Assembly: GCF_021155765.1 (NCBI RefSeq)
Contig: NC_060106.1
Coordinates: 18,626,031 to 18,690,030, forward strand
Reading direction: 5' to 3'
DNA: 64,000 nt
DNA from: Diprion similis
Lineage: Eukaryota > Arthropoda > Insecta > Hymenoptera > Diprionidae
This document shows positions 1,706 to 10,800 of the stretch, one piece after another. The first letter of the stretch is position 1. Each line of letters starts with the position of its first letter. The position numbers and the translations under genes were made by a program. Under the pieces are notes generated by a model, which was given only the letters and a program-made list of their open reading frames with translations, was not told the DNA's origin and ran no database searches.

Positions 1706-3213
1706 ATGGCTTCGAATGCCGAATTTGAGCCGCTAGAAGCGTCTGTGCGAAACGTGATTGATCAACGATCGTTGAGATGGATATTCGTTGGCGGAAAAGG
1801 AGGTGTTGGGAAAACAACGTGCAGGTGAAGTGTACATAACCTATACAAGAGTGTGGGAATATCGTAGGAAAATAGGAGTCCAGTTAAAATGACGTTCGTA
1901 AACGGATAATTGTATCCCTAATTTTATTTTCAATACAGCTGCTCCTTGGCCATCCAGCTGGCTAAAGTTCGCGAGAACGTCTTGATCATTTCCACAGATC
2001 CTGCGCACAATATATCAGATGCGTTCGATCAGAAATTCAGCAAAGTACCCACAAAAGTCAAAGGATTTGATAATCTATTTGCCATGGAAATCGACCCCAA
2101 TGTTGGTATCACAGAACTACCTGAAGAATATTTTGAAGGCGAAGCTGGTTGGTTGATATTGGAATTATTCTGACAATGCAATATTTTCAACTCTATTTAC
2201 CTTCTCAACAATTTTTAGGAGTCATAGGAGGAGAAGCGATACGTTTGAGCAGAAGCGTGATGCAGGAGATAGTCGGCGCTTTTCCTGGAATAGACGAAGC
2301 TATGAGCTATGCCGAAGTAATGAAGTGAGTAAGATTTTTTAACTCCATGTCTCAAAATATGGTGAAGTAATTATTGTAAAAATTCAGTTGTCTTCTATGC
2401 AATTATTAATTTTTTTGGCATCTTTTTCAGGCTCGTGAAAGCAATGAACTTTTCGGTCGTTGTATTTGATACTGCACCAACCGGTCACACTCTGAGATTG
2501 TTGTCCTTTCCACAAGTTGTAGAGAAGGGTTTAGGAAAATTAATGAGACTGAAAATGAAAATCAGTCCCTTCATATCTCAGGTTTGTGTAATAGAAATTA
2601 ATTTTCAAGTTGAACCATAAAGTTACACAGATTATATTAATAAAATCAACTAACTTTTTACAGATAGGTTCATTGTTGGGTATGTCGGATATCAACGTCG
2701 ATACATTTTCCAATAAAATGGAAGAAATGCTGGCAGTAATTCGTCAAGTGAATGACCAATTCCGGGACCCAGAGCAAACAACTTTCGTCTGTGTTTGTAT
2801 AGCCGAATTTTTGTCCCTCTATGAAACAGAAAGACTGGTTCAAGAGTTAACAAAATGCGGCATTGACACCCACAACGTTATTGTAAACCAATTGCTATTC
2901 TTAAAAGAAGGTGATGTGCCTTGCCGACTCTGCCAGGCCAGGCACAAGATTCAGGACAAGCATTTAGATCAGGTAATTCATTGATCTCTCCTCGTCTCAT
3001 TCTTCCAATTTATAATTTCTATAATGTATAATTGTTATAATAATTTTCCACACCTTTAACTACGATAATCTTAATGCTTTCGTCGATTCAAAGATTACAG
3101 ATCTGTACGAGGACTTCCACGTGACGAAACTGCCATTGTTGGAACGCGAAGTTCGCGGAGTTCAACATATAAAAGAATTTTCCGAGAACTTGGTTAAACC
3201 GTACAAGCCGTAA
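1706..3213 (+). CDS. GET3: ATPase GET3/ASNA1 (tail-anchored protein targeting; arsenical pump-driving ATPase homologue)
   Basis: Six exons, 1706-1824, 1939-2147, 2219-2324, 2431-2581, 2664-2972 and 3094-3213, splice in phase to 337 residues, close to the family's usual 340-350. GET3 is a cytosolic homodimeric ATPase that carries newly made tail-anchored membrane proteins to the ER receptor (WRB/CAML, Get1/Get2). All signatures are present: deviant Walker [11 protein letters not shown] (about residues 29-38), the STDPAHN motif with the catalytic aspartate, the [10 protein letters not shown] motif, the nucleotide-binding VNQL segment, and the zinc-binding CRLC pair that joins the dimer. Helices after EGEAG, in the client-binding region, are slightly shorter than in human ASNA1. 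Every intron is GT-AG. The start codon sits in an AAATATGG context and no upstream in-frame ATG is plausible. A poly(A) signal follows 37 nt after the stop. Confidence 0.98.
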
Positions 3214-3807: not shown

Positions 3808-6295
3808 ATGCGCCTTAAACTGGTTAAAATATTACTTGTGCTCGCGTTGGTTGGTAATATAGTCGTGTGGCATAGAATATGGAAATTATTCGCGGGGCCG
3901 AGCGTCTCTCTGACGGCGGCGCCGGCCGCCTCGACGGTCGAAACATCCCAAAAGGTTCATCGGGGCTTAGCGCGGTCAGTGACGATTGTTATCCGTCAAT
4001 TTGAAACATTCGAAAATGACGTTTCTGCCACGGTCGAATCCGTGATGTCCGCCTTTCCTTCAATTCCCATTTTGATAATATGCGACCAGCTTCCCTATCC
4101 ACCGCTGGAACTGGACTTCAAAAATGACACAATGCGATACGTAAAGCTCATCAATCTCCAACTCAATTTTAACAAGTCCTTCGAAGAAAGGAATCCCCTC
4201 TTTTTCATCAGAACAAAATTCGTTCTATTTCTTCCCGATGCTACCAGATTGAGCACCAAACAAGTATTGCAGGTACGATCAAAGTGTGTGCAAAAGTAGA
4301 CGAGCGAATTTGAGTATAAATCTCTGTGACATTTGTCTGATACGCCAGAACTATTTATAATGTCCCGCAATTTCTATTCCATTCATGATTTTACAATTTT
4401 AGACTGTTTCAACATCTAACAATTTTTTACCGCGATTATGCAATGATTACAAAAGTCAAATATCTTTACTGTTCCAGAGTATGATTATCCAGGCATCAAA
4501 GTTGGGGGCTGTTTCTGTGCCAGTCGGTGCCAGTCCTTTAAGTTGCATTGGGATGGCACTGCGAGTGAAAGAGTGGAGCCTAGAAATGTCAAATATCGAC
4601 GGATCAACATGTGATTCTATAATTGGACGTCACGGTACTATGATTGAATCTAGAACCTTGAGGAAATTATCCGATCCATTCATTCTGCCATTCACAGACG
4701 CTTTCTACATCCAAACTACAGCGTTGGGAGCTAAGGTACGCAGTTCTATGATTTTTGCAGTTATTAGACATGTTGAGTATTATAATATTAAACCAAATTT
4801 TTTTTCTGTGATCAGTAAAAGTGTAGGAAATTTTTTCACACCTAGCATCAAGCTGTACTACATGTAGTTATGGATATTTATGCACACTGATAATTTCATT
4901 GCTTATACCATAATAGCTGATAAAATTGTTACGATAATAGTTGAATGCAAAATCGCCTGCAGTATCTTCCCTTATCAAATGTAATCTTCATTACGCCTAA
5001 TAGAATAATTATTTTTACCCACGTATATCGTAATATAGCGGGAAATGTTACGGTTTATTTTTAGTGTTACATCGGTTTTTGTTATCTATTTGGACGCCAC
5101 GCATTCTCGGTATGTGCTTGTTATGCATGTATTTAGATTCAGAGCTTGCTTTCTGGTAAGTACAACTATTATATTATTATGATTTACCATGTAATTTACA
5201 TTATGTTCAGAATTCATGACACTCTTATCACTAACACCAAACGAGTTTGGTATTGATATGGTGAGAATATATCATTTGGTTTTCATCTAAACTTGACTTG
5301 AGTCTTGACAAATTGATCTATTTGTACTTTTTTAGGACAGGAACATGTGAAGCTTTTTACTTTTAGCAGGTTACTTTTTTCACTTGTGCTTTTCATTGGA
5401 ACAACTTGTTTTGCCCTCGAGATTTTGTCGAAATCAATAAGGTGAAAGAGGCCAGTTTGATATGAGAAGCTTCACATGCTTCATGTATCTCAGTGGAACT
5501 CTGGAATGTGCTTTCTTTTCTCAGGTGCATATAATGAACGACCATCACTTCAATGAAGGGAAGCCACTATTTCGTAGCCATCAGGCACAGTGGAAAGTGG
5601 AGCAGTTGTCTCGAAGTCGAGAACGTGAAATGTTCCAGAAATTAGGGATAAAGAAAGTGACGCGCGTGTCTGGATCTGTCGAATGGTACGGCTGTTCTCG
5701 AGAGACCCCGAGGTGTTTTGGATCTGTTGTTAATGGAATACCATCCTACCTTTATCAAAACCGATACACACCTCCCTGTTGTTTAACGGGTCTGAGAAGA
5801 GTAGCTCATCATGTATTTGATAAGCTGGAAGAAGTTGGCATTCGTTTTTGGATTGATGGAGATTCGCTGCTGGGGGCGATGAGAAATGGAGATATTTTAC
5901 CATGGGGTTATCAAGTTGACGTAGGATTGAATCGTGACGATATTACGAGGTCTCCGTGGTTGGCCAGAGCTAGAAACAAACCTGTAACAGACAACCAGGG
6001 ATTCGTTTGGGAAAAAGCTACAGAGGGTGAATTTTTTAAAGTTCAATACTCCAAAACAAATCATCTTCATGTCAATTTGCTTCCATTTTATGCAGAAAAT
6101 GGTACGATGATGAAAGATGCCTGGTTTTTAAAGAACAAGGATTTTCCGGAACAATTTTTACATCCGATGTCCAGTATCGAATTTGCCGGCAGACAAGTAC
6201 CGTGTCCAAATAATATTAGAGATTTTTTGGAAATAAAATATTATAAAGGTGTGATAGAAAACCCTGAAGTACCTGGAAAACTCATTCCTGATTAG
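3808..6295 (+). CDS. FKRP: Fukutin-related protein (FKRP), ribitol-5-phosphate transferase family, with altered catalytic acids
   Basis: Three exons, 3808-4272, 4478-4735 and 5525-6295, join in phase to 497 residues (human FKRP has 495). FKRP is a Golgi type II membrane protein that adds ribitol-5-phosphate from CDP-ribitol to the O-mannose glycan of alpha-dystroglycan. A signal anchor is visible at about residues 5-25 (LVKILLVLALVGNIVVW). The stem/GT-like domain follows, then the LicD/NTase catalytic domain. The zinc-finger cysteines are present at 298, 305, 326 and 327, a constant offset of 9 from the human positions as I recall them. The nucleotidyl-transferase motif GDSLLGA is present. 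The acidic metal site is not: the human DYDVD reads G369-Y-Q371-V-D373, and the human HVDLWPF reads HVN425LLPF. The frame is intact to a natural stop, so this is not decay into a pseudogene. The protein is either a pseudoenzyme or has changed catalysis. It is tail to tail with DNAI1. Confidence 0.96.
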
Positions 6296-7853: not shown

Positions 7854-10800
7854 TTAATTTGTTATTCGAACGTCTGGTGGAGGAACTAAAACTGGCGGTT
7901 CTCTAACAAAGCTCAGAAGCCGTTCTAATTTTAACGCTTCCAATTCGTACTGGGTCATTTGCAACTGCTTTTTCGTCGGCTTTATTTTGAGTCGTAAATT
8001 TGGCGATAACTTCAGCGTGTGTACTGTTCCCCTGTTAATCGTAATGTCGATAGTATATTAGTGTTTACCGATGAGGAATTGCAGAAACGTGAATTTATTT
8101 TGTACTCTTATTTTTTTCCTGTCTTATTACACATAATCACACTTACTTATCATCCCCAACGATTACGAAAGGCAGCGCTGCATTAAATGCCAGTCTAGTT
8201 AGTTTATTCCTTCTTTTACTAACAATTGCTTGAGTGCAAATTGGCCGATATTTATTTATATTCAAATCAAACACTGTAACTTTTCCATCGTTCGACACAC
8301 AAGCCAAAACTGTTGAACTATACGGAGCCCATTGAACATCGCCGATCGGCACTCCAAGATCAAACATGAACAGAGGCTCTCTGAAATAAATGTCATTCTT
8401 AAAGTATTGTAATACATACTCGGAACAAATGCCATTGCATTGAATGTTATTTCATATTTTGGACATAGTTAAGATAAAAAATTTAATGCACAACTAACAG
8501 CCTTTCGTCTTCCCATATTTTGATTCTCCAGTCGCCCGAACAGCTAGCAAATATGCTTGAATTGTATTTGTTGAAGACAATTCTGTGTACAGGCATATTA
8601 TGGGCTTCGTCATAAGTTCTCATGTATATACTGCTGTAAGCAGTATTGCACTTATAAATTGTACCTTCTTCAGTTCCCACTAGAAATATATTTCCATCGT
8701 TCGGATGGAAAGCTATGCATGTTCCACACCCTGCAGAAAAAAATTATTGATCGATTCTCCTCGATACCTTTTAATTTTTTAGCTAGAGTACCAATTGTAA
8801 TTTATTTTTACACCATATTATTTCTGTTTCGGACCTTTCAGGGTAATCATGGTACCATCTGGTCCGGGAATAGGAGGTCGGTCAAGATATAATGTCATGA
8901 TGGTGGTGACACCCAAATCGTTTTGATTTAACACCCAATGATTGATTTTCCCATCGATGCTTACGCTATAAAAGGTAAGATTTCCTTCTTCAGTATCTGG
9001 TGCCCATCTCACCTAGAAACTCAGTGTACAATAAAACTCGTATTCTTTATATGAAAACTGAAATTTAATGAAACGAATAATTGTTAAGCGCTACGTACCT
9101 CCCATACAATACCTCCGTGCTTTTGAGTAACTTCATTACTCTTATATTGCGGCTCTGTTGGTGGCAGCATTATGTTGTACACTGCTACTGTACCATCCAT
9201 TGTTCCTTTATAAGACATAAATTTTATGGAATAACGATACATGCAAGAATCACCAAATTTGAGTTAAGAATTTAACCATTATGATCTAGAAGTATACTAT
9301 GCAATCGATTTTTTGATAGGATGGATTCAATTGTGTCGATGCATTTTTAGTCTTTTACGAAATGTTTTAAAATCACTGATCTCATTTTCTCTACATACGA
9401 TTGTTGCCTTTACCAATGACTAGTAAATGGGGGTGTTGAGCATTGAAGTCTAGACACATGACGGGAGAATCGGTCGGACAAATCCACTCTGGATATGATG
9501 GATTTTTAAGACTGAAGAGACAGACGTTTCCAGTGCTTACTGGACTCCCAAACGACACTAAAACGTGGAGATCAGTCTACAGTATTTGAAATAAAATTCA
9601 ATATCGCTGAACACCGTGTTCAATTTTTTGTAACATGTTTACGATATACTAACTTGTTCCAAAAGCCACAGCAAAAAAATCGTTGTATCTTCCATTGAAG
9701 CACATATCAGTGACGTCGTGCTTCTTTGACTTCTCGTAACTAAACTTCCATAGCGGCAATAGAGAGCCTTCTCCGTCTTTGAACTCGTCGCTTGGATCAT
9801 TCCAGTACCGGTAGTCTGCATAATTTGATTACTTAGAGCGATTGAGAGGAAACACTTCAAAGTTTAAGATGTTTTTGTTATTTGAGACAAATCCATGTTA
9901 ATTATTGCTCATATCAGAACTGAGCAAATTTGCATATTTACCTTGAGATATTTCATTGAAAATATTCTGATTCACCATTCTTTCCAACGTTTTAGAAGCC
10001 TGCAACATCCTAATGTTGGCAGCCATAGCTTCTATCTGTGCTTTTCGTTTCAAATCCTCTTTCTTTGGTTGGGGTAAAGGGACTTTTCTTTCCTTTTCTT
10101 TTTCTCGTTGTTGTTGAGCATAATCTTCCTGGGAAGGCATTTGGAGAGACTCTTATTCTTAAACAGGTTCGCTCTTGATCGGACTTTCATTACATACCTG
10201 ATATTCATCAAATATTATCCACTGAAAGACGTGCGCGTTGAATGTTGCTTTTGGTGGAGGTACGGTTTGAGTAGACATTTCCTGAAATTATAATCTCTAA
10301 TTATCTTATAAGATCGACAAGTAATCATTCAATTCGATTATACACCATCGATGCAATCAAACTGTAAAATTTTCAGTATGTCTGCGCACAGCCACATTAT
10401 TAATGTGAAACTTCTTATTGTTCAAATGTAAATTCTATCAAAACCACCTGCTCACCCTCATAAGATTATTATAGGTCAAAGCAGCTCTTTCACAGAAGTT
10501 GAATTGATTGGGAACTTTTTTTGGCTTTACTATCTCGCCCTCCTCGTCGTCCGGTTCAGGTTCAGGTTCAGGTTCTTGTTGAGGCTCAGCAGGCTTTTCA
10601 GCATCCTCTATTTTTTCTGTTCCTCAATGAAAGGTGAGAACAATTGAAAATGAGTAGTTCTCTGAATTAGTTAACGCATGATCAGCCAAGATATTTGATT
10701 CCATACCTTCGTCCTCTTGGTTGGCATCTTGCCCATCTTCCTCTTCTTCCCGACCTTGTTCTTCCTCTTCGTCATCTTCGTCTTTCTCAACTAAGAAATC

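Follow-up and report, generated by a model that had tools for sequence, protein, structure and literature searches.

The only FKRP gene detected in Diprion similis has an intact frame, lacks three of four catalytic aspartates and probably persists in a non-catalytic role

Mutations in FKRP lead to muscular dystrophy. The addition of ribitol phosphate to dystroglycan is described as the sole function identified for FKRP before a 2021 report (PMC8134429). According to the same source, vertebrate FKRP binds non-muscle myosin-10 and is itself required for fibronectin localisation in the Golgi, and recombinant FKRP is unable to sialylate fibronectin itself (PMC8134429). In human FKRP, D360, D362, D364 and D416 help to bind Mg, with D362 acting as a direct ligand of the site II metal, and these residues are called essential on the strength of the mutants D360A, D362A, D364A and D416A (Kuwabara et al. 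2020, PMC6965139). That study also describes L433-Q437 as the CDP-ribitol contact loop, K256 as a contact to mannose phosphate and R295 as an essential contact to the acceptor phosphate (PMC6965139). Another enzyme of the pathway, POMK, was once taken for a pseudokinase and proved active, by means of residues that sit at unconventional positions (PMC5142810). Across insects, the dystroglycan glycosylation cascade is reported to be well conserved except in Drosophilidae (Bigotti and Brancaccio 2021, PMC8478517), where FKTN, POMK and RXYLT1 are described as absent and LARGE baits gave the same match as B4GAT1; the 13 enzymes given there as surveyed do not include ISPD. Among the matches listed in a literature search, no title or abstract opening reported an FKRP lacking its catalytic aspartates.

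The window, which is the whole 64,000-nucleotide stretch of DNA analysed here, lies at C2:18,626,031-18,690,030 of a Diprion similis assembly of 269 Mb in 60 contigs. It contains an FKRP gene on the + strand whose spliced model, 3808-4272 + 4478-4735 + 5525-6295, encodes 497 aa in a stop-free frame ending in TAG, with GT/AG boundaries at both introns. These junctions are a model built from genomic DNA and were picked among 626 stop-free GT/AG combinations because of a near end-to-end fit to human FKRP. An initial sequence-only reading had described 497 codons with no break, which is true of the spliced frame and not of the genomic stretch, as the latter consists of three exons rather than a single ORF:

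3808..4272, + strand: FKRP exon 1, with a short N-terminal tail, a hydrophobic segment MRLKLVKILLVLALVGNIVVW (by eye) and the start of the stem domain; an ORF with its GT donor at 4273
4478..4735, + strand: FKRP exon 2, stem domain; AG acceptor before 4478 and GT donor at 4736; aligned to 6kaj
5525..6295, + strand: FKRP exon 3, with the end of the stem, the zinc loop, the LicD/nucleotidyltransferase-fold catalytic domain and the stop codon

The residues at the four catalytic positions (G369, Q371, D373 and N425) and the four zinc cysteines (C298, C305, C326 and C327) are all encoded by exon 3, and are therefore unaffected by the choice of splice model. Taken by itself, exon 3 matches human FKRP (6kaj) with E 2.6e-82 in phmmer and LicD with E 2.2e-9. 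A structure prediction from exon 3 alone reached a mean pLDDT of 33.8 and was set aside.

Directly upstream of FKRP, at 2595-3213 of the window (+), the ATPase ASNA1/GET3, which targets tail-anchored proteins, is represented by exons of which 2595-2981 matches GET3 with E 2.5e-44 and the last is an assignment by eye at about 3105-3213. Downstream and on the opposite strand, 8146-8743 (-) holds exons with WD40 repeats that belong to an axonemal dynein intermediate chain, with DNAI1 as its nearest match; here 8486-8743 matches DNAI1 best, and 8146-8451 has weak beta-propeller matches alone. Two frames near 13.4-14.0 kb gave no match in a Pfam scan. From 15000 to 64000, where frames of at least 85 aa were listed, many translations resemble simple repeats and no clear coding exon was seen by eye.

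Residues 57-493 of the spliced protein align with human FKRP (PDB 6kaj) at E 1.2e-109, and the Pfam stem domain FKRP_N is matched over residues 51-287 with 216.8 bits, compared with 36 bits for LicD. Identity to human FKRP amounts to 106/197 aligned positions (54%) in the catalytic domain, 69/236 (29%) in the stem and 20/31 in the zinc loop. A second, active paralogue had been named as one way to account for the unusual copy, and this was checked across the whole 269-Mb genome: queries with the FKRP exons, the LicD profile and human fukutin found no second FKRP copy, and the sole match of the fukutin query besides the FKRP locus had E 5.61. Outside the genome, 2 and 68 pattern-matching stretches in viral contigs and 52 in prokaryote genome contigs were considered as FKRP relatives, and none was confirmed by tblastn. 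Judged by its sequence, the gene is an FKRP orthologue by descent, given its FKRP_N stem, C4 zinc loop, LicD domain and standing as the sole detected copy.

Alignment to 6kaj bears out the central observation of the sequence-only reading, namely that D360, D362 and D416 are replaced by G369, Q371 and N425, so that one of the four catalytic acids is kept, D364 as D373. All four zinc cysteines are present at the constant offset of 9 from human that had been proposed (4/4 kept), and the human numbers D360, D362, D364 and D416 given in that reading agree with those in PMC6965139. The loss extends to the hG[GS] motif, where human G344, G345 and S346 correspond to G353, D354 and S355, and glycine 345 is gone. 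Much of what surrounds the site is kept, as seen in PW.Y.VD.G, GFVWEKA and QYS..NHLHV.L.PF. Human fukutin carries Ser at the place of D360 in the alignment, and therefore the G369 change on its own need not inactivate. The positions concerned are:

5693..5695, + strand: zinc cysteine C298 (human C289), kept in the 6kaj alignment
5714..5716, + strand: zinc cysteine C305 (human C296), kept in the 6kaj alignment
5777..5782, + strand: zinc cysteines C326-C327 (human C317-C318), kept in the 6kaj alignment
5861..5863, + strand: D354, where the hG[GS] motif of human FKRP has G345; Gly in 10/10 LicD proteins
5906..5908, + strand: G369, replacing catalytic D360 (alignments to 6kaj and LicD)
5912..5914, + strand: Q371, replacing catalytic D362 (alignments to 6kaj and LicD)
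5918..5920, + strand: D373 (human D364), the sole catalytic aspartate kept (alignments to 6kaj and LicD)
6074..6076, + strand: N425, replacing catalytic D416 (alignments to 6kaj and LicD)

The codons are GGT for G369, CAA for Q371, GAC for D373 and AAT for N425. The argument that a D-to-Q change needs at least two base changes is correct, since Asp is GAY and Gln here is CAA, and we agree that a sequencing error is unlikely in this one assembly where three separate codons differ, one of them requiring two or more base changes, and the frame is intact. The same codons weigh against the wider explanation that a sequencing error, a misassembly or a diverged paralogue masks a normal FKRP elsewhere; the evidence comes from one assembly, which leaves that explanation some room, but the FKRP-exon, LicD-profile and human fukutin queries led to this locus alone, bar the E 5.61 match, and we give it hardly any weight.

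To place these changes in the wider family, bacterial LicD relatives (PF04991) were sampled by comparing a 61-aa segment of Diprion FKRP with 72,556 plasmid records. This query carries Gly and Gln at positions 360 and 362, and so has no bias to Asp there; it includes Asp 364 and stops short of 416. It matched 20 plasmid records, 12 of which have a LicD family annotation under the best match. Among the LicD proteins aligned (10 of the 12 annotated), Asp occupies all four positions in 10/10, and Gly stands at 345 in 10/10, with gaps more frequent in the part of the alignment that holds the column for position 416. The count covers these 10 annotated records, leaving out 8 unannotated plasmid records and 18 phage records with matches, and it describes bacterial proteins and says nothing on insect FKRPs.

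The genome was also searched for the rest of the dystroglycan pathway. Profile searches found the dystroglycan gene at C2:17.35 Mb, on the same contig as FKRP and about 1.28 Mb away, and 11 Glyco_transf_49 matches at four places. One of these is a LARGE orthologue at C11:1,658,845-1,662,117, with a GT8 domain beside Glyco_transf_49, the GT8 part matching LARGE1 at E 4.6e-61 and both domains showing acidic D.D motifs by eye. With dystroglycan and LARGE present, the source fits an animal. The three other Glyco_transf_49 loci (on C8, C11 and C6) are possibly B4GAT1-like; the C8 match covers the whole profile with two in-frame TAA read through.

The enzymes that supply and precede the FKRP step gave a different picture. 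In six-frame, exon-by-exon searches that had no positive eukaryote genome as control for ISPD, FKTN, RXYLT1 or POMK, there was no credible match for ISPD (CDP-ribitol synthase), with neither IspD nor the human protein matching and ISPD_C reaching E 1.44, 2.85 and 3.52; none for fukutin with FKTN_N, the human protein matching FKRP itself at E 0.97 and a chance-level site at E 5.61; no match of human RXYLT1 and a single RXYLT1_C match at E 1.18; and no match for POMK, whose query reached no kinase whatever at E up to 10 and may therefore have had low sensitivity. The three weak ISPD_C matches were dismissed as chance, the one at E 1.44 lying in a 600-aa frame that resembles a coiled coil by eye. 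The RXYLT1_C match at C10:18336657 was followed up by local tblastn over two adjoining 9.5-kb stretches, which returned four matches, all at E 1.3 or worse; it was read as chance because the best of these was E 1.3 and one match fell at the same place. As a measure of profile power, the whole human proteins reach 136 bits against IspD and 238 against ISPD_C for ISPD, 511 against FKTN_N for FKTN and 314 against RXYLT1_C for RXYLT1, and the intron-split LARGE and dystroglycan genes were detected by the same type of profile search. LARGE is thus present while none of the enzymes that normally build its primer (RXYLT1, FKTN, ISPD and POMK) had a credible match, and retention of LARGE would be odd if the ribitol-based primer is gone.

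At the plasmid loci, the LicD gene adjoins a cytidylyltransferase gene in three of ten cases, one of which encodes a bifunctional cytidylyltransferase/SDR protein. ISPD is tied to LicD proteins by Gerin et al. 2016 (PMC4873967), and this tie, taken with the gene adjacency, suggests that the disappearance of ISPD and that of the FKRP active site would go together.

The remaining substrate contacts of FKRP separate into two sides:

5594..5596, + strand: K265 (human K256), kept in the 6kaj alignment
5711..5713, + strand: R304 (human R295), kept in the 6kaj alignment
6125..6139, + strand: F442-K446, equivalent to L433-Q437, the loop that contacts CDP-ribitol in human FKRP; 5/5 positions changed, with a two-residue deletion right after

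On the donor side, the CDP contact Q482 has become E489, and human D303, which is bonded to the ribitol loop L433-Q437 (PMC6965139), corresponds to G312. The closing patch is mixed, with L308, Y309 and P484 kept, W313 changed to Tyr and Y483 to Val, and L488 outside the alignment (roles from PMC6965139). Of six acceptor contacts named in PMC6965139, four (K256, R295, V300 and H412) are unchanged; Ser replaces T299, and Q261 stands opposite H252, next to a His at 260. Residue by residue, the donor and metal side is therefore largely dismantled and the acceptor and zinc side largely intact. This also means that the initial account, correct in its three lost aspartates, understated the damage to the catalytic site, where G345, Q482 and the ribitol loop have changed as well.

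An enzyme that is still active might rely on a rebuilt metal site (for example D373 with the new D354 and a metal bound elsewhere), on a metal-light mechanism or on a different donor, for instance CDP-glycerol. The catalytic domain remains 54% identical to human, much of what surrounds the site is kept, and D354 brings an extra acid into the hG[GS] motif. The precedent of POMK in the same pathway (PMC5142810) is the reason why a site rebuilt around D373 and D354 keeps a small share of the probability in our estimate. Against such activity, the replacement of D362 and D416 by Q371 and N425 takes away carboxylates by which the metal is coordinated or positioned (PMC6965139), all four Asp stand in every one of the 10 aligned LicD relatives, the donor loop and Q482 are altered, and ISPD had no credible match in a search run without a positive eukaryote control; overall, we consider continued activity unlikely. 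The pseudoenzyme half of the earlier alternative between a pseudoenzyme and a transferase with different metal handling has gained from three of the four essential Asp being gone and the donor and acceptor enzymes going unmatched, whereas nothing positive was found for altered metal handling. In terms of residues, FKRP as a pseudoenzyme is well supported, and on the defining feature tested, the catalytic acids, the predicted protein fails as a CDP-ribitol transferase.

Loss of catalytic residues could also reflect a gene in decay. Neutral evolution was simulated, starting from a sequence that carries Asp at the altered positions, for seven divergences between 0.02 and 0.8 (4000 runs apiece), with intron base composition and no indels. 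At least three of the four Asp had changed in a still open frame in 0/4000 runs at each of the seven divergences, and where three of four Asp were probably altered, stops were near certain. Simple neutral decay of FKRP is rejected. The simulation speaks against plain decay and not against a protein that first changed its function and then came under weaker constraint at its catalytic site. A recently dead pseudogene, in which stops are still to come, would be helped by the lifting of selection that pathway loss would bring. However, the 497 codons contain no stops, frameshifts or lost splice sites, the GT/AG boundaries are intact, the simulated outcome (0/4000 throughout) runs counter to it, and FKRP_N still recognises the stem with 216.8 bits, all of which make a dead gene very improbable.

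Our preferred reading is that the sole FKRP copy probably lost CDP-ribitol phosphotransferase activity along with the ribitol-phosphate branch and persists in a non-catalytic job. In this lineage, dystroglycan glycosylation would have lost its ribitol-phosphate branch, and because this would have removed both the donor and the acceptor of FKRP, its catalytic site would have been free to change, while the protein may meanwhile have been under selection for a non-catalytic job. The well-conserved insect cascade described in PMC8478517 counts against pathway loss in Diprion. Reasoning from human FKRP, the likeliest job would be that of a membrane protein of the Golgi that forms oligomers and keeps a bound glycoprotein or partner enzyme in position, with LARGE or dystroglycan as candidate partners. 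Taken over from vertebrates by analogy, a non-catalytic Golgi role appears the most likely for Diprion FKRP. A fuller version of this reading, which we hold tentatively and think more likely wrong than right, has ISPD, FKTN, RXYLT1 and POMK all gone, FKRP acting as a non-catalytic Golgi scaffold that may read phosphorylated or anionic glycan via its retained acceptor pocket, and LARGE extending its polymer on a ribitol-free primer. If the scaffold reading is true, FKRP has an old second function that is separable from catalysis. An animal with a whole FKRP minus most catalytic acids, apparently without the donor and acceptor enzymes, would be a natural split of enzymatic and non-enzymatic functions, and the result bears on the glycan carried by insect dystroglycan.

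Compared with known systems, Diprion FKRP shares with human FKRP (PDB 6KAJ) the stem domain, C4 zinc loop, LicD domain, R295, K256, domain order and length (497 vs 495 aa), and differs in the replacement of D360, D362, D416, G345 and Q482 and in a ribitol-contact loop that is both altered and shortened. Human fukutin shares the LicD domain and transfers ribitol phosphate in the step before that of FKRP; unlike Diprion FKRP, it retains the acidic residues of positions 362, 364 and 416 and lacks a zinc loop (homology model in PMC6965139), its stem is very unlike that of FKRP, and no credible fukutin match was found in the Diprion genome in a search with no positive eukaryote control. Bacterial LicD proteins belong to the same catalytic-domain family, and an FKRP segment without the acids of D360 and D362 still retrieves annotated members, which, unlike Diprion FKRP, keep Asp at all four positions (10/10 aligned). 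POMK (SgK196) is similar in being a dystroglycan-pathway enzyme for which sequence suggested a pseudoenzyme; its activity has been demonstrated, while Diprion FKRP is known here from sequence alone, and by analogy this precedent would be the chief warning against the pseudoenzyme reading. The Diprion genome resembles the pattern reported for Drosophilidae (PMC8478517), with the difference that LARGE is present in Diprion. Because Drosophilidae are reported there without FKTN, POMK and RXYLT1, we predict that, if Drosophila keeps FKRP, that protein should be non-catalytic also.
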